The position numbers were made by a program, and so were the translations under genes. 52,424 nucleotides of DNA from Chitinophagaceae bacterium (lineage in GTDB: Bacteria; Bacteroidota; Bacteroidia; Chitinophagales; Chitinophagaceae). The stretch spans positions 1 to 52,424 of the forward strand of contig JAQBNK010000013.1 in NCBI GenBank assembly GCA_028288595.1. The letters run 5' to 3'. This document shows, in pieces, positions 3,335-20,192 of this stretch. Positions within the stretch are counted from its first letter, which is position 1, and each line of letters starts with the position of its first letter. The notes beneath the pieces were generated by a model that had not been told where the DNA came from, searched no databases, and worked only from the letters and a program-made list of their open reading frames with translations.

Positions 3335-5557
3335 TTAAAAGTTTTGTGCATTTACATTTATCGCAGAAGGTGGCGCACTCTGCGGATTACTGCCCCAGCT
3401 TTTATTCGGAGAAGGGCCCATTACCAGTTCCAGCTTTCCGCCATTCACCAGGTCTTTATGACTGAACCATGCCTGGTTCCATACTTTCCCATTTAAAGTA
3501 GCGCTTTGTATGTAACGGTTAGTCTTAGAATTATTTTTCGCGACGATCGTAAAACTTTTATTGTTTGCGAGTTGTATTGAAGCTTCATTAAAACTGGGGC
3601 TACCAATATTATAAACAGGTAATCCCGGTGTAACAGGATAAAATCCCATCATAGACAAAACAATGAATGCACTGGTGCCACCACCATCTTCATCACCGGG
3701 TATACTGAACACATCATCTCTGTACCATGTATCCATCAGCATTCTTATTCTCTTCTGTGTTTTCCATGGGGCTCCTAAATAATTATAGAGATATGGGATA
3801 TGATAGCTGGGCTCGTTACCGATTGAATATTGTCCTACCAAACCCGTAGCATCAGGGAATCTTGCCCAGAATTCGTACTTGCTCCGGCCCAGGTCCTCCC
3901 GAAATAACTGATCGAGTTTTTGTTCTGCTTTTTGTTTTCCTCCCATGAGATCAAACAAACCGTTAAGATCATGTTTCACATCCCAGTCGTAAGTATAATC
4001 ATTGTTCTCCGTTGTATAATCCCGGCCTCCCATGCCGCCTGAAAATTTTGGATCGAAGGGTTCTATCCATTTGCCGGCTTCATCTTTAGGCCACATGAAA
4101 TTTTTATCTGTGCGGAAAACATTTTTATAATAACCTGCTCTCTGCAGAAATAAGCCCTGGTCATTATTAAGGTTAAGCGATTTAGCCAATTGTGCTAAAC
4201 ACCAGTCATCATAACTATTTTGTAAAGTAACCGCGACAGCCTGTCTTTTTTCAAAGCTATGTACTTCGGGTACGGTTTCTTTTTCATTAGGCCATAACGA
4301 AGGGAAGTAACCGTTTTTATTATAAAATGTATCGAGACTTGTTGCAGGTCCATTTCTCCATGGCAGTAAAGTTGCTTCCAAAGAGTTTTTCCTCAATCCT
4401 TCATATGCTTTTTTCAAATCAAAATTTCTAACTCCTTTAAACCATGCGTCTGCAACCCAGGCTGCAACATGGTTTCCCGTCATACAAGGATTATCACCGA
4501 AGATCAACGCGAAAGAAGGCATCCATCCTGATTGCTCATACATTTTTACATAAGACTCAATTTTATCACCTTCCTGACCAGGATTTAATATTGTATGAAG
4601 CGGCTCGTCAGCGAGGTACATATCCCATATCCAGTTGTCTACATAAAATGGACGCGAGTCTGTGTGCACCTGGTGATCATAAGCGCTGTAATATTTGCCG
4701 TATTCAGAAATATCCACCATACGTTCGTAGGTTCGGTATAACGCTGTATAAAATGTCCTTTTCTGTGCTTCAGTTCCTCCCGAAACATTTACCTGGTTTA
4801 AAACACGCTGCCATTCTTTTAATGCCGTATTCTTTACGGTGTTAATATCCCACGACGGAATTTCCTTTTGTAAATTTTCTTTTGCCTGTTCGATACTGAT
4901 GAAAGAAATACCGTATCTAAAATCAACGGCTTGCTGGTTACCGGATAATTGAATTAATAACTGTTTTTTATTAGCAGCTCCGTTTTGCTGCCATTCGATA
5001 TCTGCATTTGTTTCTGCATACACGAATGCTTTCATTCCATTGAAAGTTTCAGAGCCGGTTATTGTTCTTTTTCCCTGTACGGCTAATTCGCCTTCCGCAT
5101 TAATAACATTTAACCTGAGCCATTTAACATCTGAAGAAGGAAATTTAAAATGATAATAGCCACTATGTCTTGAGGGAGAAAATTCCACTTCAGTATTGAT
5201 CTCCTCTAAATTAACACTATAATAATACGGGGTCGTTTTCTCCAGGTCGTAAGTTGTTTTTTCTTTCCAGTTTTGTTGGAGTCCCGGTTTTGCAGGCATC
5301 AATGCAAATACATTTCCTATCCGGTGAGAATACATGGTGAGCGGGAAATAACTGATCTGGTCGTCGAGCTGATCTTTACGAACAGGGTACATTCTTATTA
5401 CGCTGTTCGGCAAATGCGCTGTTGGCCGCGTAGGCTCAAGCAACTGACCCACGCCGCCGATCGTTGGATCTACATAAGCAACGTTGCCTAGATTTTGTTG
5501 CTGCGCATGCGCAAACGTCAAAAAGAAAAGCGGTAAAAGAGCGATGATTTTTTTCAT
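3335..5557 (-). CDS. GH92-family glycoside hydrolase (alpha-mannosidase type)
   Basis: This is a 740-residue exported member of glycoside hydrolase family 92, whose studied members are calcium-dependent exo-alpha-mannosidases. The ATG at 5557 starts a clear signal peptide (LLPLFFLTFAHAQ); an upstream TTG at 5575 is less likely. Family marks are YVDPTIGG near the mature N-terminus, GNEPSYHIPYLYNY, which holds the expected acid Glu, and PGDEDGGGTSAF followed by MGFYPVTPGLPVYNIGSP, which holds the expected base Asp. The N-terminal domain is diverged: the usual glycine-rich first loop is replaced by QLLEPTRPTAHLPNS. Removal of alpha-linked mannose is therefore likely, with linkage and phosphate tolerance unknown. 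It lies between two phosphatase genes in the operon. Confidence 0.88.
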   Translation of the reverse strand: MKKIIALLPLFFLTFAHAQQQNLGNVAYVDPTIGGVGQLLEPTRPTAHLPNSVIRMYPVRKDQLDDQISYFPLTMYSHRIGNVFALMPAKPGLQQNWKEKTTYDLEKTTPYYYSVNLEEINTEVEFSPSRHSGYYHFKFPSSDVKWLRLNVINAEGELAVQGKRTITGSETFNGMKAFVYAETNADIEWQQNGAANKKQLLIQLSGNQQAVDFRYGISFISIEQAKENLQKEIPSWDINTVKNTALKEWQRVLNQVNVSGGTEAQKRTFYTALYRTYERMVDISEYGKYYSAYDHQVHTDSRPFYVDNWIWDMYLADEPLHTILNPGQEGDKIESYVKMYEQSGWMPSFALIFGDNPCMTGNHVAAWVADAWFKGVRNFDLKKAYEGLRKNSLEATLLPWRNGPATSLDTFYNKNGYFPSLWPNEKETVPEVHSFEKRQAVAVTLQNSYDDWCLAQLAKSLNLNNDQGLFLQRAGYYKNVFRTDKNFMWPKDEAGKWIEPFDPKFSGGMGGRDYTTENNDYTYDWDVKHDLNGLFDLMGGKQKAEQKLDQLFREDLGRSKYEFWARFPDATGLVGQYSIGNEPSYHIPYLYNYLGAPWKTQKRIRMLMDTWYRDDVFSIPGDEDGGGTSAFIVLSMMGFYPVTPGLPVYNIGSPSFNEASIQLANNKSFTIVAKNNSKTNRYIQSATLNGKVWNQAWFSHKDLVNGGKLELVMGPSPNKSWGSNPQSAPPSAINVNAQNF

Positions 5558-5591
5558 CTTTTTATTTTTAATCAAACCAAAAATTTTTTTA

Positions 5592-7235
5592 TTAATTCTT
5601 AATCACCTCAGCAATCGGCTTACCGATACAACCATTGGGCTCCTGTATATGAAGAAGAGCGGCAAGTGTTGGGGCGATATCTGTCATGTTAGTTTGTTTC
5701 ACACTGGATCCATGTTTAATCCCCCATCCCATCCACAGCAATGGTATATGTGCATCATAGGCGTTCCACGAACCATGCGTGGTGCCCGTGGCATTAGCCG
5801 CACCAGAATACCATGCAGGCTCTAATACAATAGTAACAGGCCCCGAGCGATCTGTATTATACCCGTTAATGATACGGGTCTTCAAAAGCTCAGGAACCGC
5901 AGACTGTGCTATGTTTTTTGCATCAACAACAAATGCTACCCCGGGTTTATTGCTTAAAAAGTTTACACAATCCTTCCTGATCGATTCCTCATCCAGTTTA
6001 TTTTTTTCTATTTCTTTATAATTGAAATGTACCTGAGAGTTACTGAAACTGGTAACGATGTTCTTTATTTTGTAATTGCTTTCTAAAAAACTATTGAGAT
6101 CTTTTTGCACCTGGCCGCTTTGCCATAATCCTGCAGGAATGTTTTTATCGATGAGAAGATTAGGATTATGTGCTGCACCATGATCAGCAGAAAGAAATAC
6201 AGTATAATTTCCTTTTCCGAGTTTTGTGTCCAGGTAAGTGAAGAATGATGCCAGGTCGCGGTCAAGTCTTAAATAAGTATCCTCTACTTCAATTGCATTT
6301 ACCCCAAATTTATGACCGATATAATCTGTGGATGAGCAACTCACCGCAAGAAAATCAGTAACCGCATTTTGTCCAAGTCTTTCTTTGTCAATTGCAGCTT
6401 TTGCAAGGTCGAGGGTAATAGTATTGCCATAAGGCGTGGAACGAATGATATCAAAATTTTTACTGAACATGGATGATGTCTTCACAGGAAAGGTGGAAGT
6501 AGTTTGTCCCATAAACTTTCCTTCATAACGATTATCATCAGGAGAACTTTGAACATAAGTTTTAATATCGTACAAAGTGTTCCAGTCCTGGTTTAAATAT
6601 TTTTCTGCAAGGCGTTGTTCATTAAATTGCTTTACCCAGGCTGGCAATTCTTTCATGTAATAAGTACTGGTGATCCAGTTACCGCTTGCATTATCAAACC
6701 AATAAGCTGCATCCGCCGTATGGCCCCCAGGTAAAATACTTCCGCGGTCTTTTAACGATATGCCGATCACTTTTGACCTGAAATTGGTAGCGAGTTTTAA
6801 TTCATCGGTAATAGTGCTTGCCAATAAATTACGGGGCGACATTTTTCCTTCGTCGGAAGAACTACCAACTGATTGAACAGTGCTATCTTCAGTACAATAA
6901 ACCGTTTTGCCTGTAGCATTCACAATAAAATCGTTCCCAGTTATTCCGTGTATAGCGGGTACTGAACCTGTATAAATAGTGCTGTGCCCGATAGCAGTTA
7001 CCGTGGGCACATAATCAATGTAAGTATTCTCGCAGGTAAATCCTTCGTTTAGTAAACGTTTGAATCCGCCATTTCCGTACCGGTCATAATAGCGGTATAA
7101 ATAATCCCAACGCATCTGGTCTATTACAATTCCAACTACCAGCTTTGGCCGGGGCAAAGTTGTTGCAATATCTTTTTGCGCCTGGCTAATTACAAACCCA
7201 AAGCAAAGCAAGACAACAATTATGATTCTTCTCAT
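5592..7235 (-). CDS. pafA: PafA-type alkaline phosphatase
   Basis: This 547-residue periplasmic phosphatase belongs to the alkaline phosphatase superfamily and resembles PafA, the phosphate-insensitive monoesterase of Bacteroidota. A signal peptide ends near residue 20. Metal and active-site marks are VVGIVIDQMRWDYL (Asp39), PTVTAIGHS, where Thr80 is the expected nucleophile, SLKDRGSILPGGH, which holds the Lys/Arg pair used for phosphate binding, SADHGAAHN and the late THGSWNAYD metal site. Length and order fit the family well. In the operon it sits between the GH99-like lipoprotein and the GH92 gene, which points to dephosphorylation of sugar phosphates released from the imported glycan. General phosphate scavenging is the alternative. 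Confidence 0.93.
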   Translation of the reverse strand: MRRIIIVVLLCFGFVISQAQKDIATTLPRPKLVVGIVIDQMRWDYLYRYYDRYGNGGFKRLLNEGFTCENTYIDYVPTVTAIGHSTIYTGSVPAIHGITGNDFIVNATGKTVYCTEDSTVQSVGSSSDEGKMSPRNLLASTITDELKLATNFRSKVIGISLKDRGSILPGGHTADAAYWFDNASGNWITSTYYMKELPAWVKQFNEQRLAEKYLNQDWNTLYDIKTYVQSSPDDNRYEGKFMGQTTSTFPVKTSSMFSKNFDIIRSTPYGNTITLDLAKAAIDKERLGQNAVTDFLAVSCSSTDYIGHKFGVNAIEVEDTYLRLDRDLASFFTYLDTKLGKGNYTVFLSADHGAAHNPNLLIDKNIPAGLWQSGQVQKDLNSFLESNYKIKNIVTSFSNSQVHFNYKEIEKNKLDEESIRKDCVNFLSNKPGVAFVVDAKNIAQSAVPELLKTRIINGYNTDRSGPVTIVLEPAWYSGAANATGTTHGSWNAYDAHIPLLWMGWGIKHGSSVKQTNMTDIAPTLAALLHIQEPNGCIGKPIAEVIKN

Positions 7236-7273: not shown

Positions 7274-8323
7274 TTATTTTTTCTTAAGTTCTCTTTTTGT
7301 CAGGTTCAAATAATCCTGGTTGTATTCATTTGCAGGCTCAAGCGTATTACCCTTTTGAAAATCATTCCATGAATTAATAAAGATCAGCCGGTTTTTACCC
7401 ATAGCTCTTTTAGCGACGTTGCAATAGTCAACATAATTTTTTTCATTACGCGGTATCACATACTGTGCAGGTGTTGATGGGTTGTTCCAGCCAGGAAATA
7501 TGCACGGCACAAATTCAATGTTCCAGGCTTCGAGGGTTTTCTTCCAGTTCTGCCAGTTTAAATCACTGTAACTATAGAAGGCAAAAGAACGATCATAATC
7601 TGTAGTGCTCCAGGTTGTAGGAACTATCGCATCGAATGCACGCTGTGTTGTTTCAGCATAATTTAATGGCGCTACCCAGCCGGTGGTTAATTCACCCACC
7701 AGGTAAGAATCGTAACCCCATATTTTCATAGAGAGTCTTACAGAATCGGCTACTTTTTTATAATCAATACTCGTTGCTGCCGCCGCTGCAAGATTTAATG
7801 GTGATAACAACACTACCGGTTTGGCATCGATCTTATAATATGTGGAAGAAGTAATGTAAGTGTCGCTTAGTGTTTTTAATTCTGCCAGCATGGTATTCAA
7901 TTTAGCGCCTGTTAAAGGAGCTGCGTTGGTAGCGCCTAAGTGAGCCGTATTATAATCGATCACCATTTTTACAGAACTGTTAGCAGCAACGGTTTTAAAA
8001 TTACTCAGTATAGCATTATCTGCAGTACCGTTCCATTTAAAAATAAAAAAATCAACACCTCCTGCAGTGGCCCAGGTTAAATGCTGTTGCATAACACTTG
8101 CAGTAAGCGCATCATATTTCCCGAGCGTTGGAGTAAATGGTATGGTTACTGCCCAGTCCGCAGTTTTATACACAGAATAATAAGCCCCAACCCTTGCATC
8201 TTCCGTAAGGTTAACCTGTGGTATAGGAAAAACATATTTGGTTGGATCAACTATGATTGAATCGTTTTTCTTGCATGCAACGAAGCTGAGGGAAAGAGCC
8301 AGAAAATATATTACACGTTTCAT
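7274..8323 (-). CDS. GH99/WbsX-like lipoprotein
   Basis: This 349-residue lipoprotein has a signal peptide with the lipobox SFVAC before KKND, so it is probably anchored at a membrane or on the cell surface. The rest resembles the (beta/alpha)8 fold of the GH71/GH99/WbsX group: VGAYYSVYKTADW, GGVDFFIFKWNG, and the C-terminal INSWNDFQKGNTLEPANEY. In many relatives the last motif reads SWNEWxEG, so the usual acidic residue after the linker is Lys here, and catalysis by the family mechanism is uncertain. It follows susD by 27 bp and precedes pafA. A decayed paralogue of its 3' end lies at 17339-17708. It may hydrolyse or bind an internal mannan linkage. Confidence 0.75.
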   Translation of the reverse strand: MKRVIYFLALSLSFVACKKNDSIIVDPTKYVFPIPQVNLTEDARVGAYYSVYKTADWAVTIPFTPTLGKYDALTASVMQQHLTWATAGGVDFFIFKWNGTADNAILSNFKTVAANSSVKMVIDYNTAHLGATNAAPLTGAKLNTMLAELKTLSDTYITSSTYYKIDAKPVVLLSPLNLAAAAATSIDYKKVADSVRLSMKIWGYDSYLVGELTTGWVAPLNYAETTQRAFDAIVPTTWSTTDYDRSFAFYSYSDLNWQNWKKTLEAWNIEFVPCIFPGWNNPSTPAQYVIPRNEKNYVDYCNVAKRAMGKNRLIFINSWNDFQKGNTLEPANEYNQDYLNLTKRELKKK

Positions 8324-8350: not shown

Positions 8351-9976
8351 TTATTGAGGGAGATAAGGATTACGCTTTGTTGGTAAAGCAAACCACAACT
8401 TAGTTTTCATTGCATCCGGTCCGTTCAGATACGTAAGCGCTTTTGTTACTTCATCTTTGTTAACGTTGTATTCAATGTCAGGATAAAGTAAACGCTGCGG
8501 TACATACGCGTATCCAACTGTGCCGCCTTCGCTGCCATCCGGGTTAAAATGCGGAGGGAATTCAAGCACCTGGGTTCTGCGTATCAAAGTCCAGGCATCA
8601 AAAGCATTATAGAAACCAGCGAGCCATTCCTGCATAACGATCTGGCGGAAAGGATCAAAAGTTAAAATAGCACTGGTAGTAATACCTATGTAATCAGTGA
8701 ACTGTGAACCACGTCCAGTTGTATCAACTTTGGTGTTCCATTTAACACCTGGCTGTGCGAGGTAAGCATTGATCTCTGTTTGCGGCAAATTATATTTTGT
8801 CATAGACGCAGTGATGCCCTCAACATAATATAGATCCGCCGTTTTTGATCCTCCCCATCCTTTCAATGCAGCTTCCGCTTTTAAGAAACATGCTTCTTCA
8901 TAAGAAAGAAATACATATTCAGCATCGGGCTTTGCAAAATAATCACCCACCTGGGAATAGTCGAGCTGCGCCCTGTTCGCATGTGGATTATTTGGCATAC
9001 TAAAGCCTGTTGGTAAACTGGTTGTTTTAGGCTGACCCCAATATTTTCCAACGTTAGGTCCCTGTGTAGCCGGCTTTGCATAAATCTTTAAACGCGGGTC
9101 GTTGTACGGCAGCATGTGCTGAACCAATGATTCACTAACAACATTTAATGACGTAGCATTAGAGGTTGCATTAAAGACATTATAATTATAAAAGAAACTC
9201 CAGGTCTGTGAAGTGGTTCCCCAGAATGAACGGGCAGTTTCCCCCTGATTTAAAATTGTATTTGCTTCATCAGCTAAAACTTCTGATGCAACCTGCTTTG
9301 CAACTGTAGGGTTACCATTTGGTGCAGGATTAGAGATGCGCATTGCTAAACGCAACCGTAAAGTATTCGCAAATTTTTTCCATTTGATCAGGCTTCCTGC
9401 ATAAATAGCATCGGAAGTAGCTTTATAGGTATCGCCGGATAAATTGATTGCTGCCGCGGCTGCTTTCAAATCGTTCATCAGGCTATAATAAATATCTTCC
9501 TCTTTATCATAGGCCGCATGATTGTCGCCATTCAACGCTTGTGATCTTGGAATACTTCCCCAAATAGCAACCATATTAGAATAGATATAACATTCAAGGA
9601 TTTTAGCGATAGCCACCCTGTTATTATATGCGGGCTGACCCCCAAAATTTAATTGTATCTGGTGAACAGGCTGTAGGCAGGTTACATACGGTATCCTCCA
9701 GTAATCAGTTGTGGAAGCTGCGATCTGCCAGTAACGCTCGTACTGTCCTCCTCCTACTGAGACATAATTAGAATAATGCGAAAGCGCTCTTCTGCGCATA
9801 TCGCCACCATAATAATTCATCGTATTAAGGATCGCTGTGTTTAATAAATATTCGGGATCAACAACTTCCGGCCTGTTGGGATTTACATTCAGCTCAGCAA
9901 GATTTTTTTTGCATGAACTCGTTCCAATGCTAAAAAAAGCAAGCATTATCACTAAAAAATTATACCTGGATTTCAT
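8351..9976 (-). CDS. SusD/RagB-family glycan-binding lipoprotein
   Basis: This is a SusD-like surface lipoprotein that would cap the SusC channel and bind glycan. The ATG at 9976 is preferred to an upstream GTG because it starts the signal sequence directly and leaves 11 bp after the susC stop. The lipobox is GTSSC, with the cysteine followed by KKNLAELNVNPNRPE, a common SusD beginning. Helical repeats and the motifs YIYSNMVAIWGSIP and EACFLKAEAALKGWG fit the SusD-like_2 (RagB) branch. The C-terminus has the usual PDIEYNVN, TKLWFALPTKRNPYLPQ ending. It forms the import complex with the gene just upstream. Confidence 0.95.
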   Translation of the reverse strand: MKSRYNFLVIMLAFFSIGTSSCKKNLAELNVNPNRPEVVDPEYLLNTAILNTMNYYGGDMRRRALSHYSNYVSVGGGQYERYWQIAASTTDYWRIPYVTCLQPVHQIQLNFGGQPAYNNRVAIAKILECYIYSNMVAIWGSIPRSQALNGDNHAAYDKEEDIYYSLMNDLKAAAAAINLSGDTYKATSDAIYAGSLIKWKKFANTLRLRLAMRISNPAPNGNPTVAKQVASEVLADEANTILNQGETARSFWGTTSQTWSFFYNYNVFNATSNATSLNVVSESLVQHMLPYNDPRLKIYAKPATQGPNVGKYWGQPKTTSLPTGFSMPNNPHANRAQLDYSQVGDYFAKPDAEYVFLSYEEACFLKAEAALKGWGGSKTADLYYVEGITASMTKYNLPQTEINAYLAQPGVKWNTKVDTTGRGSQFTDYIGITTSAILTFDPFRQIVMQEWLAGFYNAFDAWTLIRRTQVLEFPPHFNPDGSEGGTVGYAYVPQRLLYPDIEYNVNKDEVTKALTYLNGPDAMKTKLWFALPTKRNPYLPQ

Positions 9977-9987
9977 ATATGACACAG

Positions 9988-12900
9988 TTAAAAAGTTAGA
10001 ATTAAATTAAAGCCATAAGTTGATGATGGCGGTAATGAACCGTATTCAATACCCTGCCCGTTACCGGAAGTAACACTGGCTTCCGGATCAATACCGGCCG
10101 GAGTATTTTTATGAATGGTCCATAAATTTCTTCCTGACAGAGATATTCTGGCTGATGATAATGGTAATTTTTTTAATAAAGAAGCAGGAAGATTATAACC
10201 AACGACTATTTCTCTCAGTTTAACATAAGAAGCATCGAACATTTCCAGTTCTTCATTATTGAAATAACCTTTTCCTTTAATAGCATTATCCGGGTTTAGA
10301 TATTTGTCATTAGGTTTTCCATTTTCAAAATAAGCATCACTGAAAATGAAACCGGTATTGGTAAGATTTGGATCCTCACCCAAAATATAAGTATGCAGGT
10401 AATAATCTTCACGTCCTGTGAGTGTAAATGCAAAAGCACCAGACTGCAGCTCGCGTTTGTATGTACCGGAATAGAAACTTCCGCCGTTGCGTATATCAAT
10501 CAAAAAACTGAAAGTGAAATTTCCTACTTTAAAATTATTAGTGATGCCACTTGTCCAGTTAGGCAGTGCACTACCCAGTAATGTATTCGGAGTAGTTAAT
10601 ACGCCGCCATCCGGTGCTACTAATTTCCTGTTAAGTGAATCTCTTTTCCAGCCCCGTCCCCTGATAATACCATATGGCTGTCCCACCTCTGCGTAAACAT
10701 TAGCATTACCGAACCATGTATTTAATAAGAATGCATTCACACCATCGATAAGACTAACAACTTTAGAGCGGTTCTTTGCAAAATTTACCAGCACGTTCCA
10801 GGAGAATTTTTTATTCTGAACCGGCGTTGCGCCCAGAACTATTTCATGACCCCAGTTATCAATTTGACCTGCGTTGTAATACCTTGTCTGGTAGCCACTG
10901 GCAGGTGTTATCTGCGCCGTAATGATCTGGTTTGTTGTTGATGATTTATAATAAGTATAACTTAAGGTCAGTTTATCATTCAGGAAGCGGAGGTCTACGC
11001 CACCTTCTGCAGATGCCGTTTTTTCAGGCTTAAGATCCGGGTTAAAAAATGTAGAAGAAAGTGAAGCATAAGCCTGCCCGTTATAAATTCCATTGAAAGA
11101 ATAAGTAGGTTCTAACTGGTAAGGATCTGTATCACTACCTACAATTGCGTAAGAGGCTCTGATCTTACCGAATGAAAGAATATTTCTCGGAATGGTTTTA
11201 AACGCATCTGTGAAAACAAAGCTTCCTCCGATCGACGGATAGAAATAAGAATTATTCTGAATAGGTAATGTAGATGACCAGTCATTTCTTGCTGTTACAT
11301 CAAGAAACAAATAATTTTTGTAGCCAAATGAAACAGAAACATAAACGGAGTTGATCGCTTTTTTCGTAACAAAATCTGTTGCGGTTGGAGACTCACTTGA
11401 ATTACTAATATTGATCAGCCCTGCCTGTATAAGTGAGTTGATCTGCGCCCCTCTTTTTTGTGTAACCGATTGAAAACGTCCGGCGCCAACAAAAGTGTTC
11501 AAAGAAATATTACCAAACTTTTTTGTTGCAGTAAGGATAACATCAGCATTAATATTGTTGAGCTTATTGTTGAAAGTTTTTAAGAGTCCGTCTGCATCTG
11601 ATTGTGCTCCTTTATTATTAAATTCATAACCATCGGTCCATGTCATTTCCGTACCCAGCCTGGCTGTTAATTTCAGCCATCTATTAAAACTGATATTAGC
11701 ATTAAACGCACCAAGGAATTGATCACGTGTATCCTGGTTAGGATTTTCGTTAATAGCCCAATAAGGATTTAAGAAACTGGTGTGTGTGTTTGTTTCGTTG
11801 CCAAGAGAATCTTTATATACTGCATAATCAGAAAAACGAACATCACGAACCATGAATGCATATTGATAAATAGGATTCTTTGTACTGCCATTCATGTACT
11901 GGCGGTTAGTTACCGTGTTGCGTGAAAAAGTAATTTTAGAATCGAGGTTAAACCAATCAGCAACATTATTAGTAACTCGCAGGTTAATAGTATTCCTTGT
12001 GTTTTTATTTATGCCTGCCACTACACTGTTCCCATAATAGTTTGTATACGAGAAGCGGTAACTATTCTGTGCATTTCCTCCTTCCAGTGCGATGGCGTTT
12101 GTGATCATTCCTGCAGTCTGGTAAAAATCCAGGATGTTATCAGGTTCTGGCAGGTAAGCTTTTAACTGCCCGTTAATTCCATAAACGGGCTGACCTAATA
12201 AAGGAGCACCCCAACTGGTATTAAACACTCTTTCATTTGGAATACGTGCAGGATTACTGGTTGAACCTGAACCTTCCAGTTTATAAGCAGCGCCTGCTCC
12301 AAACACATTCTGGTATTCAGGGAATTCAGTGATTCGCTGAAACGACATGTTTGAATTGAACGTTACTTTAAATCTTTTACCTGATGATTTTTTTGTAGTG
12401 ATAAGAACAACACCATTCGCAGCTCTTGAACCATATAGTGCTGATGCATTTGGTCCTTTTAAAATTTCGATATTTTCAATATCCTCAGGATTGATATTCG
12501 CAGCAGCGTTACCATAATCCAGATTGTTATTTCCCGATGTTGAAAGTGTTTTATCACCAGCTTCGTTATCGACAGGAATTCCATCAATAACAAAAAGCGG
12601 CTGATTATTTCCGGTGATGGAATTCGTTCCCCGAATAATTATCCGTGCGGAACCGGTGGTGCTTGATGGAGGTGTTATCTGAACACCCGCAACTTTACCC
12701 GAAAGCGAACTGACGATATTTGTTGACGGCGCTTCGGTAATATTGGTAATATCCATTTTTTGCCTGGAGTAGCTTAACGCCTTAGCTTCCCTCCTGATAC
12801 CAAGTGCTGTTACAACCACCTGGTCTAGCTGGGAATTAGAACCTTCCAGTTGAATATTTACAACTGGCTGGCCATTTAATTTTTGCGTAAAAGGAGCCAT

Positions 12901-13137
12901 GCCCACATAAGTGAAAGTGAGTTCCTTAACACTTGCAGGAACTCTTATATTATAAATTCCCTGGGCGTTAGAAACAGATTGAATTTTTCCATTTCCTGTA
13001 GTGGCTGAAACATTGACTCCCTGTAAAGGAGTTTGATCAGTACCGGTAGTTACTTTACCGGTTATTACAGTTTCCTGTGCAAGAATACTGGTAGTGGCAA
13101 AAAACAAAAAAAGCAGCAAGCAATTAATCGTTTTCAT
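9988..13137 (-). CDS. SusC/RagA-family TonB-dependent outer-membrane transporter
   Basis: This 1049-residue protein is the channel of a SusCD glycan importer. It has a signal peptide to about residue 20 (TTSILAQ), a carboxypeptidase-regulatory-like domain at about 22-105 (ITGKVTTGTDQTPLQGVNV), a plug domain at about 110-230 with SARIIIRGTNSITGNNQP, LFVIDGIPVDN and EILKGPNASALYGSRAANG, and then a 22-strand-type barrel ending in GFNLILTF. It is the first gene of the 2063-13137 operon. Its promoter region holds a LacI-type palindrome at 13315-13328, so transcription is probably repressed until a sugar inducer binds the LacI protein encoded at 17833-18864. Confidence 0.97.
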   Translation of the reverse strand: MKTINCLLLFLFFATTSILAQETVITGKVTTGTDQTPLQGVNVSATTGNGKIQSVSNAQGIYNIRVPASVKELTFTYVGMAPFTQKLNGQPVVNIQLEGSNSQLDQVVVTALGIRREAKALSYSRQKMDITNITEAPSTNIVSSLSGKVAGVQITPPSSTTGSARIIIRGTNSITGNNQPLFVIDGIPVDNEAGDKTLSTSGNNNLDYGNAAANINPEDIENIEILKGPNASALYGSRAANGVVLITTKKSSGKRFKVTFNSNMSFQRITEFPEYQNVFGAGAAYKLEGSGSTSNPARIPNERVFNTSWGAPLLGQPVYGINGQLKAYLPEPDNILDFYQTAGMITNAIALEGGNAQNSYRFSYTNYYGNSVVAGINKNTRNTINLRVTNNVADWFNLDSKITFSRNTVTNRQYMNGSTKNPIYQYAFMVRDVRFSDYAVYKDSLGNETNTHTSFLNPYWAINENPNQDTRDQFLGAFNANISFNRWLKLTARLGTEMTWTDGYEFNNKGAQSDADGLLKTFNNKLNNINADVILTATKKFGNISLNTFVGAGRFQSVTQKRGAQINSLIQAGLINISNSSESPTATDFVTKKAINSVYVSVSFGYKNYLFLDVTARNDWSSTLPIQNNSYFYPSIGGSFVFTDAFKTIPRNILSFGKIRASYAIVGSDTDPYQLEPTYSFNGIYNGQAYASLSSTFFNPDLKPEKTASAEGGVDLRFLNDKLTLSYTYYKSSTTNQIITAQITPASGYQTRYYNAGQIDNWGHEIVLGATPVQNKKFSWNVLVNFAKNRSKVVSLIDGVNAFLLNTWFGNANVYAEVGQPYGIIRGRGWKRDSLNRKLVAPDGGVLTTPNTLLGSALPNWTSGITNNFKVGNFTFSFLIDIRNGGSFYSGTYKRELQSGAFAFTLTGREDYYLHTYILGEDPNLTNTGFIFSDAYFENGKPNDKYLNPDNAIKGKGYFNNEELEMFDASYVKLREIVVGYNLPASLLKKLPLSSARISLSGRNLWTIHKNTPAGIDPEASVTSGNGQGIEYGSLPPSSTYGFNLILTF

Positions 13138-13498
13138 TTTGTAGAATTTACAGCGTATAAACAGTTAAGAATTGGTGTGTGAAATTTTGATTATAAACAA
13201 TTAGAAAAGTAAACGATTTTTTTTTCGACTGTCGTGTGATGCAAAGTATAATTCCCCGATAATGAGAAAATATGGCAACGATCAATTTGCAACCGAGTAC
13301 CAAACTTATAATAACTAAAACGTTTTAGCAAATCTTTTAAATTCATTTTCCAACAATTTCGTAATACAGAAAAAATAAAATTAAAATTGAATGCAGCGAA
13401 AAAAAAGATAGGAAAAAGGTATAATAAGTTACCCTCCGGTTTCACTAAAAACATCAACCAGAAGGCTTAGTTTATTATTGTTCAGCCCGGCAGTAGGA
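13138..13498. other. Intergenic region upstream of susC
   Basis: These 361 bases lie between the end of the 13499-14767 gene and the susC start. The only clear content is the operator-promoter at 13301-13332, which leaves an untranslated leader of about 155 bases before susC. An 88-codon minus-strand frame (13191-13457) runs through the promoter, has unusual Phe/Lys-rich composition and is judged not to be a gene. No hairpin followed by a T-run was seen for the upstream operon. Confidence 0.6.
13301..13332 (-). promoter_or_regulatory. LacI-type operator inside the susC promoter
   Basis: Read on the minus strand, a TTTG (13332-13329) is followed by a 20-bp spacer and then TAAGTTTG (13308-13301), which match the Bacteroidota -33 and -7 elements. 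The spacer holds the perfect 14-bp palindrome CTAAAACGTTTTAG at 13315-13328. LacI/GalR operators commonly have such a central CG. The same 20-base string occurs at 17767-17786 with the same promoter elements around it. A repressor bound here would block RNA polymerase. The boxes and the regulator are inferred; the palindrome is directly seen. Confidence 0.8.
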
Positions 13499-14767
13499 TT
13501 AATATGTTCTGTAAGGGATTTTAGTTTGAAATGGAATCTCTTTTTTTAGCATGCCCGCTGCCTGCCCTGCCAGCCACATATAATGATCAGACGGAATTTC
13601 TTTTTCAATAGGAACGAATTTACTTTCACCAACAGGTACAACTTTCGCACATTTAAAAATGGCTGTGCCTTCATCTATTTCGTCAAACATAGCAACATAG
13701 ATCATTTTCGCCCCCACATCAATCGCTCCTGCTAATTGCTTCCAGAAAAAATTTCCCTTATTACGCGGTATTGCATCGAAGGGATCATTATGCCGCATAT
13801 TTTGCCAGCTGAATCCGGGATATACAACAGGAACATAATCCAATCCGTTCTTTGTACACCATGCCAGATCGTTTTTCAGCCGGTCTTTAAATTGCGGATA
13901 AGTGTCTTCATTATAACGTCCGACAAACCAGGGCTGAACAATATCTATTTTCTTAATTATTTTATGCAGCAGTGAATCGTCCTGGGTATCATATTTTAAT
14001 TCACGCCACCAGGTTGGTACGCCTAAAAGAACAGAGCATCCTCCATAAACAGGATCGTTCTTCAAAAAATCAATAATTTTTTCTACTTCTTTCAATCCAT
14101 ATTTCCTGCCGTCGTTAAAACCAGCGCCCCACACAGCTACCAACGGTTTATTACGATGAAAAAGATAATTTTCGCAGGCTTCTTTTTTATTGAATTTGTA
14201 TTCATCGATCAATTGCTTCCAGTCATCTATCACCTTTGTATAATCTTCCGCCTTCATGCCGGAAAGATCATACATGATTGAAATTGCACGGTCATATTTT
14301 TTAGCAGCTTTTATAGCAGAACCTAAAACTTTTTCATAATGCTTTGCCCCTTTCGGATTCATCACAGTTGTAATAAAGCGCTGCATAAAAGCACCATCAA
14401 TACCGTAATCCTTCATCCATTTAAAATGAAGATCAACCGTACTTTCATCATAAGAACTAAAAACATAAGCAGGCTGACCATCCGGGAGATTAAAAGCTGT
14501 TTTATATTTTACTGTGTAGTCGGTTACATCTGGCCAATAATCAACTTTTGTACTGCCGGGTTCAAATGTTTTCCCTTGTGTATAATGGTTCCATCCCCTG
14601 TCTGCACCATCTCCTTCAGCATTAAACCAACCTTGGTACCCAACCATCACAAGGTTATTATACGACATGTGTTTCCATTTCTTTTCTTTCTGTGTTTTCT
14701 GGCTGTTGCCGCACAGGCAGGAAGTAAAAAATAAAAAAGCCAGTAATAGTTTTCTTTTAAGAAGCAT
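13499..14767 (-). CDS. GH71/99-like glycoside hydrolase, exported
   Basis: This 422-residue protein starts with a signal sequence (LLLAFLFFTSCLCGNSQ) that contains a possible lipobox. The mature part matches the glycoside hydrolase 71/99-like family: MVGYQGWFNAEGDG, AYVFSSYDESTVDLHFKWMK, GIDGAFMQRF, PLVAVWGAGFNDGR, and MFDEIDEGTAIFKC near the C-terminus, where the acidic pair is a candidate catalytic site. GH99 enzymes act as endo-alpha-mannosidases, which would fit with the GH92 gene in the first operon. It is the last gene of the second operon, 23 bp after the ROK kinase. The exact substrate is not visible. Confidence 0.8.
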   Translation of the reverse strand: MLLKRKLLLAFLFFTSCLCGNSQKTQKEKKWKHMSYNNLVMVGYQGWFNAEGDGADRGWNHYTQGKTFEPGSTKVDYWPDVTDYTVKYKTAFNLPDGQPAYVFSSYDESTVDLHFKWMKDYGIDGAFMQRFITTVMNPKGAKHYEKVLGSAIKAAKKYDRAISIMYDLSGMKAEDYTKVIDDWKQLIDEYKFNKKEACENYLFHRNKPLVAVWGAGFNDGRKYGLKEVEKIIDFLKNDPVYGGCSVLLGVPTWWRELKYDTQDDSLLHKIIKKIDIVQPWFVGRYNEDTYPQFKDRLKNDLAWCTKNGLDYVPVVYPGFSWQNMRHNDPFDAIPRNKGNFFWKQLAGAIDVGAKMIYVAMFDEIDEGTAIFKCAKVVPVGESKFVPIEKEIPSDHYMWLAGQAAGMLKKEIPFQTKIPYRTY

Positions 14768-14790
14768 TGTTATGTTTTAAATATTAAAAA

Positions 14791-15684
14791 TCAAACATGG
14801 GCGGCCTGTAAAATTTTTGATTCTTTTTTATGCCAGGTGCTTGCAGCTCCTATTAAAGCAGATTGCTCACCCAATAAAGCTTTTGTTATTACGGGGGCCA
14901 GGCGCAAGTCTTGTAAACCAGTCATTAATGATTCCGAAAACAATTCAAAGGCATTAGAAATATTTCCACCAATTACAATGCATTCGGGTTGTTCTTTATT
15001 GATTATCGGTTTTAGAAATGATGCAAGATTTTTTCCGAATTCATTAAAAACCTGCCTGGCCATCATATCATCAGCCGCTAAATCTGACAACTCTTTTACC
15101 CCTTTTATTTCTGTTCCGCAAAGAATTTGATACCGGCTAACAAACCATCTTGTTGAAAGATAATCTTCAGCTATACCTTCTAAGAATGACGAACACCAAA
15201 GGTTAGCGTCTTCCGTTTTACCATAATGTAACCGCGCAGAACCAAGCCCTGTTCCCAGTGTTATACCAATAGCTTTATCTTTTCCTGCAGCTGCGCCACT
15301 GAAGACTTCGCCCTTCAAAAAACTTTCTGCATCGTTTATAAACCGGATGTTGTTTGGAAATATCCCTAATTTATCAGCTAGTAAGTTTCTGACGTTAAGC
15401 TCATAAAGTGAATCATACTTATCCTGGTTTTCCATTAAAGAAATACCCGACGAATAATCAAATGGCCCCGGCATAGCTATCCCCACCTTATTATCAAAAC
15501 TTTGCGTATCGAATACTTTTTTTATTACGTTGCTCCAGATAATAATGATATCTTCTGCCTGCGCTCCTGAATTAACGGCCTGCCTCGCAAAACGGCTATT
15601 GACTATGTTGCCATTATCCAAGTCTACTAATGCCGCTGTGATATGTGATCCCCCAATGTCTACTCCTGCAATTCTTTGACTCAT
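14791..15684 (-). CDS. ROK-family sugar kinase
   Basis: This 297-residue cytoplasmic protein belongs to the ROK family, which includes glucokinases, fructokinases and N-acylmannosamine kinases. The N-terminal phosphate-binding motif is AGVDIGGSHITAALVD. KVGIAMPGPFDYSSG and NDAESFLKGE follow, where the Asp of NDA is the expected catalytic base, then AIGITLGTGLGSARL and the C-terminal ECIVIGGNISNA. It lacks an N-terminal helix-turn-helix, so it is a kinase and not a ROK repressor. The usual CXCGXXGCXE zinc motif is absent. It probably phosphorylates a monosaccharide released by the two operons; mannose is a guess from context. Confidence 0.88.
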   Translation of the reverse strand: MSQRIAGVDIGGSHITAALVDLDNGNIVNSRFARQAVNSGAQAEDIIIIWSNVIKKVFDTQSFDNKVGIAMPGPFDYSSGISLMENQDKYDSLYELNVRNLLADKLGIFPNNIRFINDAESFLKGEVFSGAAAGKDKAIGITLGTGLGSARLHYGKTEDANLWCSSFLEGIAEDYLSTRWFVSRYQILCGTEIKGVKELSDLAADDMMARQVFNEFGKNLASFLKPIINKEQPECIVIGGNISNAFELFSESLMTGLQDLRLAPVITKALLGEQSALIGAASTWHKKESKILQAAHV

Positions 15685-15719
15685 GACTTTATTTTTTATG
15701 CGTCAATATAAATTATTTC

Positions 15720-16031
15720 TCAGTTCTTGTTTAGCTGCTGCAGCTTAGTAAGGTTGACTGTTTCAAAAGGTTTTTCAGAAAGTCCATTATAATAATTAAG
15801 CACTACATCTCCCTCCGGTCCTGATATAGATATTACAGCATAACCAGGCAGGTCTGCTTTTGAAAATTTAAGAATGTGTTTTTTTTCTTCAGTCAAAATT
15901 TTCGTTCTTATATCTTCGAGCTTGTCATAATGCATATCTCCCGATACAATAAAGTTCGCATCCTGGGCCCAGCAGATAACAATGCAGAAACTAAAAAAAA
16001 ATGTAAGGCTGAATATTTTAAATGCTTTCAT
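15720..16031 (-). pseudogene. Metallophosphoesterase with most of its middle deleted
   Basis: This 103-codon frame has a signal peptide (MKAFKIFSLTFFFSF to CWAQ), then VSGDMHYDKLED, which matches the first metal motif of the intact neighbour (LLADIHFDKLEH). It jumps after about 15 residues to FSKADLPGYAVISISGPEGD and ETVNLTKLQQLNKN, which match the neighbour's end (FEYADFCGYSTVSVS, RTVNVSKLFNPVS). About 250 central residues with the GD, GNHD and GHLH motifs are missing, so it cannot be an active phosphoesterase. The frame is still open, so it may be translated as a small exported protein. The simplest reading is an in-frame internal deletion in a duplicated gene. Confidence 0.75.
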
Positions 16032-16040
16032 GAATAAAAT

Positions 16041-16127
16041 TTATTTCACCACACCCTTCTCAAAAACATCGTTAAACAATGGCAGTAAAGTTTCTGGACT
16101 TCCCTGACGCATATAACTGGTGTATCG
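16041..16127 (-). pseudogene. 3' tail of a lost gene, family unknown
   Basis: A 28-codon open stretch with a protein-like sequence (RYTSYMRQGSPETLLP, LFNDVFEKGVVK, stop) ends 9 bp before the start of the deleted metallophosphoesterase gene. A stop codon interrupts the frame directly upstream (TAA at 16128-16130), and no start codon or longer frame is present. The position, just ahead of the next gene's ATG, is what the end of an upstream operon gene would look like. I do not recognise the family. Confidence 0.4.
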
Positions 16128-16196
16128 TTATGGGTAATTTTTATTATCCACAGAAAACATTATTTAATTGAAACGTCCTCATACAAGTTTGATATT

Positions 16197-17333
16197 TTAT
16201 GAAACGGGATTGAAAAGCTTCGACACATTTACGGTTCTCCATGGATTCGTATCTACGTTTGCATATAACGACATCATCACTTCATTTCTATGTGAAACAC
16301 TAACAGTAGAATATCCGCAAAAGTCTGCATATTCAAAATGTTTGATAAATGGTTTTTCTTTTTCGATATTTTCTCTTCTTTCCTGCAATGATGCCAGAGC
16401 AAAGTTGGGCTCCAGTTTCAGCAGGTCTGTATTGTATGCCTCTACTCCTGTTAAATGGTCTTTGATTGGAGCTCCCGGCGCAGGAACAACGCTACCGGTG
16501 CATACCTGTACGAAATTTCCTTTAAGTGTACTTCTTGTAAGTACGCTTGTCTTATGCAGGTGGCCGCAAAGCACAATAGCTTTATGTTCTCCCAGTATGT
16601 TCAACAGATCTTCCCGCAATTGTTGTTCACTTGGCTTGGCAAAAACATGCCAGTTGGCACGTGAATTAAATGGAACGACAGGCTGATGTACACAGAAAAA
16701 TAAAATATCTTCTTTATGTTCCTTAATTATTTCCTTTAACCACTGGAGGCTCTTCTCGCCTGTGTAACAGTCGAACAAAATAAACCTGGCGTTCTTATGC
16801 ACGAAAGTAGAATTAGCACTAGGCATCGGTTGTTTTTGCTCCTGGCTCTGCCATTGAAGAACAGTACTTGCATAAGTTTCCGGTGCGCCTTCACCAGTAA
16901 TATCATGATTACCTTTTATTACAAAAAAAGGCCTGTTAAGTTGTTGTGATGCTACCAGCGAAATAAATTCTTTTGTTTGTTTCTGAGCTAATTGTTCAGA
17001 ACCACATAAACCTTCAACAAAATCGCCAAGCTGCAGATAAAAATCCGCATTTAATCTCCTGGCTTTTTGTTTTGCCACTTCAAATAACGTTGGAAGGTTC
17101 TCCCTTGTAATCCGTGAATAATTTTCTATCTGCACAATATCATTTGGATACTTTTCTTTCAGATAATTCATATCATGATGCTCAAGCTTATCAAAATGGA
17201 TATCAGCCAATAATAAAAAATCAAAACCGTTACCGGGACTTGGAATAAAATTAAATGCTGATGCTCCTAAAGGCAATGCCGCAGCAAGGGTGCCGAGTGA
17301 AGTAATAAACTTTCTTCTGTTTAATGTGCTCAT
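16197..17333 (-). CDS. Tat-exported calcineurin-like metallophosphoesterase
   Basis: This 378-residue protein carries a twin-arginine signal (NRRKFITSLG, then a hydrophobic stretch to ASAF), so it is folded with its metals before export to the periplasm. The metallophosphoesterase core shows LLLADIHFDKL (Asp44, His46), LQLGDFVEGL, FVIKGNHDITGEG, CVHQPVVPFN and VLCGHLHKTSV. The C-terminal portion of about 90 residues (from STLKGNFVQVCTGSV to the end) is the region also retained in the shortened copy at 15720-16031. It is the intact catalytic gene of the second operon and probably removes phosphate from a glycan product. The start is the ATG at 17333, 5 bp after the end of an upstream remnant. 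Confidence 0.9.
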   Translation of the reverse strand: MSTLNRRKFITSLGTLAAALPLGASAFNFIPSPGNGFDFLLLADIHFDKLEHHDMNYLKEKYPNDIVQIENYSRITRENLPTLFEVAKQKARRLNADFYLQLGDFVEGLCGSEQLAQKQTKEFISLVASQQLNRPFFVIKGNHDITGEGAPETYASTVLQWQSQEQKQPMPSANSTFVHKNARFILFDCYTGEKSLQWLKEIIKEHKEDILFFCVHQPVVPFNSRANWHVFAKPSEQQLREDLLNILGEHKAIVLCGHLHKTSVLTRSTLKGNFVQVCTGSVVPAPGAPIKDHLTGVEAYNTDLLKLEPNFALASLQERRENIEKEKPFIKHFEYADFCGYSTVSVSHRNEVMMSLYANVDTNPWRTVNVSKLFNPVS

Positions 17334-17338
17334 CGTAA

Positions 17339-17708
17339 TTATTTGAATATTTCCACCACCTGTGGATGATTATATAATTCCTTAATAGATTTTGTTACTT
17401 GATCTTGAATTGACTCTTCATTATATCAAGATAAGTGCACCATATTCTTTTGCCGGTTCGAGACTTGTTCCAAACTGAAAATTGTTCCCTGAGTTGATAA
17501 GCACCAGCCTGTTCTTGTCCATGTTTTTGTCCAGTTTTCCAATTCAGGTCGCAGAAATAATTCAGGATACTGTCCAGTCATATTCGTCCGGTGCCAGTGG
17601 GTTAGGTTCCACTGCATCTATAGCTTTAATGGCTGTATGTAACGCTGTAGCGGCAACTGAAAGGATGTGTGGTTAAGGAGGTGAGAAAGGGAGAAAAATG
17701 ATTCTCAT
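17339..17708 (-). pseudogene. Frameshifted remnant of a GH99/WbsX-like lipoprotein gene
   Basis: No long frame survives here, but the pieces are recognisable. One frame reads DKNRLVLINS, then NNFQFGTSLEPAKEYG, which matches GKNRLIFINS and DFQKGNTLEPANEY at the end of the 7274-8323 protein. A second frame reads ILNYFCDLNWK ahead of it. Another reads YLDIMKSQFKIK and a stop, which matches YLNLTKRELKKK and a stop. A third frame gives IKELYNHPQVVEIFK and a stop at 17339, 5 bp before the next gene. An ATG at 17708 could be the old start. Most of the central gene is gone. This fills most of the 499 bases between 17334 and 17832. Confidence 0.7.
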
Positions 17709-17756
17709 TTAGCAATCGTTTAGTTTTTTGGAAAGCTTTAACTGTATGGCAATACC

Positions 17757-17786
17757 CAAACCTACCAACTAAAACGTTTTAGCAAA
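17757..17786 (-). promoter_or_regulatory. LacI-type operator inside the second operon promoter
   Basis: On the minus strand, TTTG (17786-17783) is followed by an 18-bp spacer and TAGGTTTG (17764-17757). The spacer holds the same perfect palindrome CTAAAACGTTTTAG (17769-17782) as the susC promoter. The promoter points at the remnant, the intact metallophosphoesterase, the ROK kinase and the GH71/99-like gene. It starts 47 bp downstream of the end of the LacI-family regulator gene, whose product is the obvious candidate to bind here. Confidence 0.8.
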
Positions 17787-17832: not shown

Positions 17833-18864
17833 CTATTTAAGAAGTCCCAGAGAAGAATTTCGGATGTTTAAATGAGGCTTTATTAATAATTGCTGAAGGG
17901 GCAAATTTTCCGATCCGCTGTCCAAATTCTCGAGCAGAATATTGATGAGTTTTTCAGACATTTTTTCAATTGGCTGATCCACAACAGTTATAGCGGGTGT
18001 ATATAAACGGAATAATTCAAGGTCATCAAAGCAGACCACTCCTATGTCTTCAGGAATACGCAATCCCAAACTTTTAATAGCGGTTAAACCATCAATTCCG
18101 AGGTAATTGGTTCCGAAAAAGACGGCATCAATTTCTTTATTATCTTTTAAAAATGTTCTCAGTTCCTTGGTTATTTTATCGGCAGGATCATTATAAGAAA
18201 CCTTCTTGATGTAGTTTTTTCTTTTGTGTCTTGCCAATGCATCTTTATATCCTTTCAACCGTGCATCCATTTGTGTTTGCTCTGAATCAATCGTGATAAA
18301 TGCAATGTTCTTAAAGCCCTGTTCTATTAAATGATCTACAGCCTGCTGAGATCCGTTGAAATTATCAAGCGCAACATAATTTGTTTTAATGGAGGGAAAA
18401 TACCGGTCGAATAATATGAGTTTGCAATTGTCATTAACCATGGTTTCAATCACATCTTCGATCCCGGCCACAGGTGTTATTATGTATCCGTCTACTTGTC
18501 GTTCACGAAAAACTTTTATCAGCTCCCTTGTCTTATCCTCATCATTGCCTGAGCTGCAATAAAATATTTTATATCCTTTTTGATTTGCATTTTCTTCAAT
18601 CAGCCCCGCAATCTGGGCAAAAAACGGGTTAGCAATATTTTCAACAATTAAACCAATTACGTTGCTTTTACCTGTGCGCAGACTTTTGGCCAGGTAATTA
18701 GTTACATAGCCGTGGTCCTTGGCGTATTTCAATACTTTTTTTGCCAGTTCTTTGGTGATGCGCTTTTCTTCTGCTTTACCATTTAAAATAAACGATACCG
18801 AAGTAGGAGAAATATTTAATTCTTTAGCGATATCTGTAATACCGGGCCTCTTTTTATTTATCAT
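17833..18864 (-). CDS. LacI-family transcriptional repressor
   Basis: The ATG at 18864 is chosen because it places the helix-turn-helix at the very N-terminus (GITDIAKELNISPTSVSFIL), as in other LacI proteins; a longer frame opens at 18966 but adds 34 unrelated residues. After the hinge helix (LAKSLRTGKSNVIGLIVENI) comes a periplasmic-binding-protein-like sensor domain (NPFFAQIAGLIEENANQKGY, LILFDRYFP, NYVALDNFNGSQQAVDHL, VVCFDDLELFRL). At 343 residues the length is normal. It lies next to one of the two identical palindromic operators, and no second LacI gene is in the window. The inducer is unknown but is likely a sugar made by the two operons. Confidence 0.92.
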   Translation of the reverse strand: MINKKRPGITDIAKELNISPTSVSFILNGKAEEKRITKELAKKVLKYAKDHGYVTNYLAKSLRTGKSNVIGLIVENIANPFFAQIAGLIEENANQKGYKIFYCSSGNDEDKTRELIKVFRERQVDGYIITPVAGIEDVIETMVNDNCKLILFDRYFPSIKTNYVALDNFNGSQQAVDHLIEQGFKNIAFITIDSEQTQMDARLKGYKDALARHKRKNYIKKVSYNDPADKITKELRTFLKDNKEIDAVFFGTNYLGIDGLTAIKSLGLRIPEDIGVVCFDDLELFRLYTPAITVVDQPIEKMSEKLINILLENLDSGSENLPLQQLLIKPHLNIRNSSLGLLK

Positions 18865-18984
18865 TTCATTGTACTTCTTTTCGAAGTTAGTATAAACGTC
18901 CTCAAGTTTTATTGAACCCTTAAGGAAATAAGCGTTGAGAAAACTTAACGAAAACCTTTTAGTCAACGTTAGAACGAATGCTAA

Positions 18985-20145
18985 TTAGTTTACTTCCAGG
19001 GCATCTTTACCGGGAAGCAGTGGAAATTTGTTATGTGGTTCAAGCTGGTACCAAAACACAACAGACGAGATATCATCTTCAAGAGGAAGGTAACGTCCTC
19101 CATTTCTCCATCCAAGCGCCTGGATAGTGACCCGCAAATTATTTTCAAAACGGATTGGATCTGCAATATGCCAGCGGTACATACCAAAACGTTGTGCCAC
19201 CTGGTAATGACCATCGCCTTTTATTACCTGGTGAAGCCCTGAATAAGGAGTTGAAAACTCTGTATAGTTAGTCTCCTCTATACCCTGGCTATTTTTCTTT
19301 CTTGTATCAAAATCATAAGCGCCGCCAAAATAATCTTCGGTGCCCGTGCCGCAGATAGTAGGATATTCCCTGTCTCCATCCATAAAAAATTTTATCTCGC
19401 CTTCTCCCCACCATCCGTTCTTATGTGAACCATATGCCATATAGGTACCAACGTACTGACCCTTACCTTTTATACTGTCTATAAGTATGTAATCTTTTTT
19501 ATAAGGAAGGGGATTTGATCTTCTGAACTGCGCATGAAAATACCCGGCATCAGATGGAACCGTGGTAAGTGTATAATCCACCTGGTAATATAACACCATG
19601 TCTTTTTCATCGATGTTCTCCATCGTGATCCTGCATTTTTTTCTGAAAGGCATCGGCCAGTAACAATTAAAACCACTACCGGGATTAACGCAAACAGCTA
19701 AAGAAGTAAGCGGCGAAAACTGTCCCCATCCCATTGCAAAAAAATCTCCTGCGGGAACTTCAACAGAAGGCATGGTTTCATCATCCCAGTAAAACCGGAG
19801 TATAGAAAAACGCCAGTTGCCTGTAGGCGTCATCCACATATGCTGGATCGCTCCCGGCCCGGTTATTTCTGCCAGCGTAAAAATTGTTTTGGTTTTAATT
19901 ACCACACTCGGACTTAGTTTCCATCCCTTTCCCAGATCCCTCGAAGCATTTGATCCTGTTCACGTAGTAGCCATGCCGCCCTGCCCCTTTGCACCGTTGA
20001 AATTTTCAGGACTGATAGAACGTGTTTTAGCATCTGATACACGAAACATATTTCCCATGTTCACTTCTATCCCATTAAAATTTCCCTGGCTGAATGCGGT
20101 TGCTGAAGTAAACAGCAGTGTTATAAAAAAAAGTTTTGGCAGCAT
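18985..20145 (-). pseudogene. GH172 (DUF2961) gene interrupted by an in-frame TGA
   Basis: The C-terminal frame (18985-19959) has clear DUF2961/GH172 motifs: EITGPGAIQHMWMTP, LRFYWDDETMPSVEVPAGDF, YWPMPFRKKCRI, and CGTGTEDYFGGAYDF, where the Glu-Asp is the expected catalytic region. The N-terminal part (from ATG 20145) is a signal peptide LPKLFFITLLFTSATAFSQ and then RSISPENFNGAKGQGGMATT. The two parts are in the same frame and are joined by a single TGA at 19960-19962, in a motif that normally reads GGMATxGTG, so one base change from GGA (Gly) explains it. GH172 enzymes include alpha-D-arabinofuranosidases and difructose dianhydride enzymes. This copy is probably inactive, unless the TGA is a sequencing error. 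Confidence 0.85.
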
Positions 20146-20192
20146 AATAACTATTGAGGTATAATGACATTGTAACAATTTTTTCTAATCCA

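Follow-up and report, generated by a model that had tools for sequence, protein, structure and literature searches.

A perfect palindrome inside two predicted promoters of a Chitinophagaceae sugar locus and its likely LacI-family repressor

We analyzed a 52,424-nucleotide stretch of DNA from a Chitinophagaceae bacterium (contig JAQBNK010000013.1, positions 1 to 52,424; hereafter the window), in which the same perfect 14-letter palindrome, CTAAAACGTTTTAG, lies within the predicted promoters of two operons of a sugar locus, and in which a gene for a LacI-family protein (lacI) is located upstream of the second copy, on the same strand. The palindrome is most likely the operator of this adjacent protein, and we propose, with a probability of roughly 0.8, that both operons of this putative alpha-mannoside-type locus are kept off by LacI dimers, which shut out sigma-A RNA polymerase until sugar releases them. 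A dimer on either operator would cover the spacer between the −33 box TTTG and the −7 box TAnnTTTG and so keep the polymerase off that promoter, a weaker site at the same position in the lacI promoter would provide autoregulation, and a sugar from the substrate of the locus would bind the effector domain and take the repressor off the DNA. We infer binding, the transcription starts, the effector, and repression rather than activation from knowledge of the family and from the geometry of the sites.

The earlier note on this DNA had described the palindrome as present at two intergenic places only, and our scan of the window agrees, with both exact copies (operators 1 and 2; Table 1) in intergenic DNA and no further copy. 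That note had also named many unrelated genomic copies as grounds for abandoning the idea; the whole genome (4,139,020 bases in 190 contigs) contains these two exact copies alone, so that the reading survives this check. The genome holds no place with one mismatch and 23 places with two, one of which is 18949–18962, while the other 22 divide into 18 within open reading frames (ORFs) and four outside them. The set of sites given in the note thus stands for the two perfect copies but overlooked the degenerate third site before lacI, and its second site and the ATG at 17333 are separated by 436 bp, compared with 178 bp between operator 1 and the start codon of the gene at 13137. A literature search for the letters of the palindrome found nothing.

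A strict scan for TTTG-N17..21-TAnnTTTG on either strand returned two places in the window, with spacers of 20 and 18 bp and with the palindrome inside both, just as had been claimed for the minus strand. Read on that strand, site 1 is TTTG-CTAAAACGTTTTAGTTATTA-TAAGTTTG and site 2 is TTTG-CTAAAACGTTTTAGTTGG-TAGGTTTG, and both match exactly the Bacteroidota sigma-A boxes, whose −33/−7 consensus comes from Bacteroides fragilis (PMC2483708, in excerpt) and whose −7 box is also described in flavobacteria (PMC9723704, in excerpt). Since the strict pattern occurs 108 times in the genome, fewer than the 191 occurrences of a control in which it is read backwards, the promoter pattern alone is no evidence; what is unlikely is its coincidence with the palindromes. 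By a rough estimate, a random 14-mer falls inside such a spacer with a chance of about 1.6e-4, and two independent ones with a chance of 2.5e-8. The two promoters have 20 letters in common, TTTGCTAAAACGTTTTAGTT, more than the palindrome itself, and may therefore trace to one event, in which case the figure of 1.6e-4 holds. This shared segment is also what speaks for a duplicated promoter fragment without any regulatory role, which we consider very improbable given that the flanks diverge beyond TTTGCTAAAACGTTTTAGTT, that the spacers differ (20 versus 18), and that the same palindrome is found at sugar genes in other genera.

The LacI-family gene said to adjoin the second site is indeed there. 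Its product carries the periplasmic-binding-protein-like effector domain at its C-terminus (PF13377, 101.7 bits against a cut-off of 26.5; PF00532, 78.1 against 22.2) and can be aligned, starting at residue 9, with LacI-family proteins of solved structure (29 matches, including CcpA and PurR; best 1.2e-37). It could not be assigned to a named LacI-family regulator such as RbsR, PurR or CcpA: of the 20 NCBIfam models listed for it, none scored above its cut-off, and the best RbsR model reached 197 bits against 382. LacI-family sites are mostly even palindromes with a central CG (PMC4052901, in excerpt), a form that CTAAAACGTTTTAG shares, if it is truly an operator. The recognition helix reads S-P-T-S-V-S-F, with SVSF at AA-17 to AA-20, and the protein thus falls outside the TVSR group. 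A genome search with this protein found four LacI-family genes, and the helices of the other three end in VSK, VSR and VSR. We favor the protein with phenylalanine at AA-20 (F-type) as the reader of the palindrome because arginine at AA-20 pairs with G at NT-6 (PMC2978694, in excerpt), whereas NT-6 is T here, which would suit an F-type protein better than the products of the three other genes.

A degenerate operator 3 precedes lacI, flanked by TTG and TAAGTTTT with a spacer of 16, and this weak site in the lacI promoter makes autoregulation a candidate, as is the case for 72% of the LacI-family regulators studied in PMC4052901 (in excerpt). We also weighed the alternative that LacI binds the palindromes but activates, or acts both ways, instead of simply blocking polymerase. 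Between the −33 and −7 boxes a spacer-bound dimer would hold a classical occluding position for repressors, and the degenerate copy at the equivalent position before lacI agrees with autorepression; activation would fit the failure to find the operators of relatives inside a strict −33/−7 pair, but on balance we regard it as unlikely. Separately, another LacI-type gene, present on contig 118 of the same genome (L017, helix VSTVSK) and in G268 (L122, helix VSTISK), has CGAAACCGTTTTCG upstream in both cases, with G at NT-6, and the contig 118 gene has a GH92 gene about 7 kb away.

We then compared the window with 294 genomes of the family, 186 of which have LacI homologues at E ≤ 1e-30. The exact palindrome occurs 24 times in 19 of them, two of these copies being those of the window itself; 17 lie by lacI, susC, GH92-operon or ROK-kinase genes, five in the promoter region of an element resembling a small RNA (sRNA), and two appear accidental (one inside an ORF in G201, one unexplained in G035). 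Nine copies (G213, G258, G084 with two, G292, G161 with two, G228 and G190) have an F-type LacI gene on one side and the adjacent gene on the other. That adjacent gene resembles SusC or a TonB receptor by Pfam or BLAST in G161, G228, G190 and G084; in G213 and G258 the resemblance is confined to its length and first residues, and in G292 it is cut by the contig end. In G226 the copy precedes a susC-type gene, with GH92 and an L-type LacI within 15 kb; in G228 one copy is upstream of GH92-GH20; and in G268, which has the closest LacI (58%), it precedes a phosphoesterase-symporter operon with GH92 further on. ROK kinases 44–48% identical to that of the window are preceded by a copy in G225, G267 and G002 (genus g3), and the sRNA-like element holds one in G269, G105, G176, G228 and G006. 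Across other genera, the LacI subfamily to which the window protein belongs goes with this palindrome, or one almost identical to it, by lacI, susC, GH92-operon or ROK-kinase genes.

These copies also bear on whether the palindrome might be read by another regulator of the genome, with lacI as its neighbor by chance. For the exact copies before the ROK genes of genus g3, the 15 kb that we fetched contained no LacI, and five copies of genus g7 lie in 15-kb stretches without LacI, but the same g3 genomes have F-type LacI homologues with similar sites elsewhere (CTAAAACGATTTAG; L141, L163 and L170), and an F-type LacI is present in 22 of 22 g7 genomes. Within the LacI family, moreover, the VSR/VSK-type helices of the other three genes of the window's genome speak against their reading this palindrome. 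We hold a different reader to be more unlikely still than activation by LacI.

To relate recognition residues to half-sites, we used 109 LacI homologues that scored at least 200 bits, drawn from the window plus 120 stretches that we fetched, and collected CG-centred palindromes (6 or more of 7 pairs) from the intergenic DNA between −500 and +800 of lacI. A TAAAN half-site was found by 32 of 75 F-type genes, whereas the 34 with another residue at AA-20 (Y, I, A, L, C or S) had none (Fisher 5e-7), and after collapsing by genus and helix the counts were 15/39 versus 0/23 (4e-4). Four stretches (L111–L114) had been fetched because of the palindrome, and without them and the window the association persisted (28/71 versus 0/33, 3e-6; collapsed, 13/37 versus 0/22, 1e-3). 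TAAA was the commonest word at NT-6 to NT-3, in 12 of 30 genera, and after the exclusions in 10 of 28, against six for AAAA, one for ATAA and none for AATA or AAAT. In an effector-domain tree built with FastTree, each of the two large clades has TAAA sites, and in its four independent starred pairs phenylalanine and the TAAA site never moved in opposite directions. As a side observation, LacI homologues with SAA-type helices (L079, L080 and L093) have CTTAATCGATTAAN palindromes near their genes; CTTAATC half-sites accompany such helices in three of four stretches, too few for a claim about a code, and hint that Ala-Ala at AA-15/16 may go with a different NT-5.

Several results weigh against repression by the adjacent protein, or against its generality. 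The LacI helix-turn-helix model PF00356 scores 23.0 bits on the window protein, below its cut-off of 27. No TAAA site lies between −500 and +800 of the gene for 43 of the 75 F-type homologues, among them the closest (L067 in G268, 58%). The sign test on the four starred pairs is not significant and is underpowered, and on the effector-domain tree the link between phenylalanine and TAAA is inseparable from shared ancestry. The G226 copy is 12.5 kb from an LacI gene that is L-type, not F-type, and the LacI gene about 1.8 kb from the G268 copy is a different one, of VSK type, which is closer to it than the F-type gene. None of the fetched copies outside the window is surrounded by the strict TTTG/TAnnTTTG pair, the operators of relatives being placed otherwise relative to the start or the promoter, and a scan of a genome contig collection (from which the window's own genome may have been excluded) for TTG-operator-N1..11-TAnnTTTG did not find the full architecture; the precise geometry of operator and promoter therefore appears to be a local trait. 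The LacI types near the G226 and G268 copies, together with the figure of 12 of 30 genera, lowered our confidence in LacI repression at this locus and in the sRNA switch considered below, and raised it for a different regulator.

In genus g7, an sRNA-like element located after a carA-like gene consists of an exact CTAAAACGTTTTAG, a −7-like box, a conserved sequence and a terminator-like hairpin, and was seen in 22 of 22 genomes examined, nine of which were already known or seen to have the palindrome when we fetched the remaining 13. After 10 to 17 bp the palindrome is followed by a box reading TATTTTTG or TATTTTG. The eight distinct element sequences of ~66 nt are invariant over their first 43 positions, and of the nine pairs of the hairpin seven never vary, one varies on one side and one is compensated, which is thin covariation. 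In each of these 22 genomes there is one LacI homologue at E ≤ 1e-120, which in one case has an in-frame TGA and in another is partial, and a CTAAAWCGW-type site is upstream of it in 17 of the 22, within 55 bp of the start of the helix-turn-helix in 16 and at 245 bp in one.

A conserved 26-mer beside the g7 palindrome occurs once in each of 19 g7 genomes and in none of 11 others; we had considered it as a dif site, and dropped this idea when the other strand was found to read as promoter, ~65 nt and terminator. An Rfam search with the element stretch of L121 gave nine matches at E ≤ 1, none above the gathering score. An RNA model of the element found nothing in the window's genome; under stricter filters, 10 of 107 family genomes gave matches at E ≤ 0.01, eight of the ten being outside g7 with 43.6 bits or less. 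The two g7 genomes among the ten have extra, weaker matches (three in G105, two in G006), and on contig 1 of G105 a second match of 49 bits (253900–253966) adjoins the main element as if duplicated. Our literature search returned no paper that combines small RNA, LacI, Bacteroidetes and Chitinophaga.

We tentatively suggest, as a doubtful extension of the proposal for the window, that these proteins form a LacI class outside the TVSR code, with phenylalanine at AA-20 and the operator core TAAANCGNTTTA, which is found in 12 of 30 sampled genera of the family, and that in one of these genera this class would also control a small RNA. If true, a sugar repressor would be the switch of a genus-specific sRNA whose element, present in 22 of 22 genomes, has an exact operator, a −7-like box and a strictly conserved ~65-nt sequence that ends in a terminator-like hairpin.

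The type of switch is familiar, and what is fresher is the recognition class with Phe and, in a related genus, the sRNA-like element. Like the local LacI-family regulons in the excerpted text of PMC4052901, the window combines an even, CG-centred palindrome, adjoining sugar operons and likely autoregulation; unlike them, its operators are inside a Bacteroidota −33/−7 promoter and lie 178 and 436 bp from the starts, beyond the 30–140 bp before start codons where more than 75% of LacI sites are found. UxaR, UxuR and KdgR of Bacteroides, named in the same source, belong to the same family and, judging the window by its SusC/SusD genes and promoter type, to the same phylum, but in contrast to the role predicted for this locus they control the catabolism of hexuronates and ketodeoxygluconate. 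For the TVSR group, the code of Camas et al. (2010; PMC2978694, in excerpt) was likewise read from operators of local regulation, and AA-20 and NT-6 seem to matter here too, although the window protein has SVSF instead of TVSR, and T at NT-6 where R20 takes G. The main text of that paper contains none of the terms TVSF, phenylalanine and Bacteroid. The window thus offers a complete and testable set of predicted operator, promoter and regulator for a sugar locus of Bacteroidota type whose substrate class can be predicted, points to a possible recognition class beyond the published code (Phe for Arg at AA-20, T for G at NT-6), and hints that a related genus may have a small RNA under sugar control.

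Read leftward from 13137, operon 1 comprises SusC, SusD, GH99/WbsX-like protein, PafA and GH92, in this order, and operon 2, leftward from 17333, comprises metallophosphatase, a 103-aa ORF, ROK kinase and a second GH99-like protein; strand and spacing suggest that each set is one transcript. The locus has the susC-susD pair with glycoside hydrolases by which a SusC/SusD polysaccharide utilization locus is recognized (SusC, SusD, GH92 and GH99-like). The 436-bp gap before operon 2 is explained by the relic of a GH99-like gene inside it, which resembles the 7274–8323 product at 62% over 29 aa (E 3e-9), together with a further colinear stretch whose match is weak, at 35% over 20 aa (E 0.12). GH92 homologues (>80 bits to the window GH92) are present in 14 of 48 LacI stretches (L067–L114), whereas 0.83 would be expected at the density found in 37 genomes (234 GH92 genes in 215 Mb); the 14 come from eight genera and are not all independent, since L112 and L114 were fetched for the palindrome. 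Given this enrichment near LacI, and since the GH92 family comprises alpha-mannosidases (NCBIfam model aman2_put), our best guess for the substrate is an alpha-mannoside-type glycan.

Table 1. Features of the locus and of the related sRNA-like element; positions refer to the window.
Feature	Position	Strand	Basis or remark
Operator 1 (putative), perfect palindrome CTAAAACGTTTTAG	13315..13328	.	window and genome scan
Operator 2 (putative), identical to operator 1	17769..17782	.	window and genome scan
Operator 3 (candidate), degenerate, CTAAAAGGTTTTCG on minus strand, 2 mismatches	18949..18962	.	85 bp before lacI ATG
Predicted sigma-A promoter of susC operon, TTTG-N20-TAAGTTTG, operator filling spacer	13301..13332	-	motif as in PMC2483708 (in excerpt)
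Predicted sigma-A promoter of metallophosphatase-ROK-GH99-like operon, TTTG-N18-TAGGTTTG, operator filling spacer	17757..17786	-	pattern scan
LacI-family regulator, recognition motif ISPTSVSFILNG, Phe at AA-20	17833..18864	-	profile and alignment matches
SusC-like TonB-dependent receptor, operon 1, gene 1	9988..13137	-	profile match
SusD-like lipoprotein, operon 1	8351..9985	-	profile match
GH99/WbsX-like protein, operon 1	7274..8323	-	profile match
Alkaline phosphatase PafA, operon 1	5592..7235	-	NCBIfam equivalog, above cut-off
GH92 glycoside hydrolase (alpha-mannosidase family), operon 1	3338..5575	-	profile match, NCBIfam
Relic of GH99-like gene, between promoter 2 and metallophosphatase	17442..17636	-	sequence comparison
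Calcineurin-like metallophosphatase, first intact gene of operon 2	16197..17333	-	profile match
ROK-family sugar kinase, operon 2	14791..15684	-	profile match; same palindrome just upstream of homologues in 3 genus g3 genomes
Second GH99-like protein, operon 2	13499..14767	-	Pfam GH99 32.3 bits, just under cut-off of 33
sRNA-like element, genus g7			stretches L116, L117, L118, L120, L121, L210-L226

Upstream of lacI, a DUF2961 gene on the minus strand (about 18985–20190) has an in-frame TGA at 19960–19962 and is probably a pseudogene or the product of a sequencing error.

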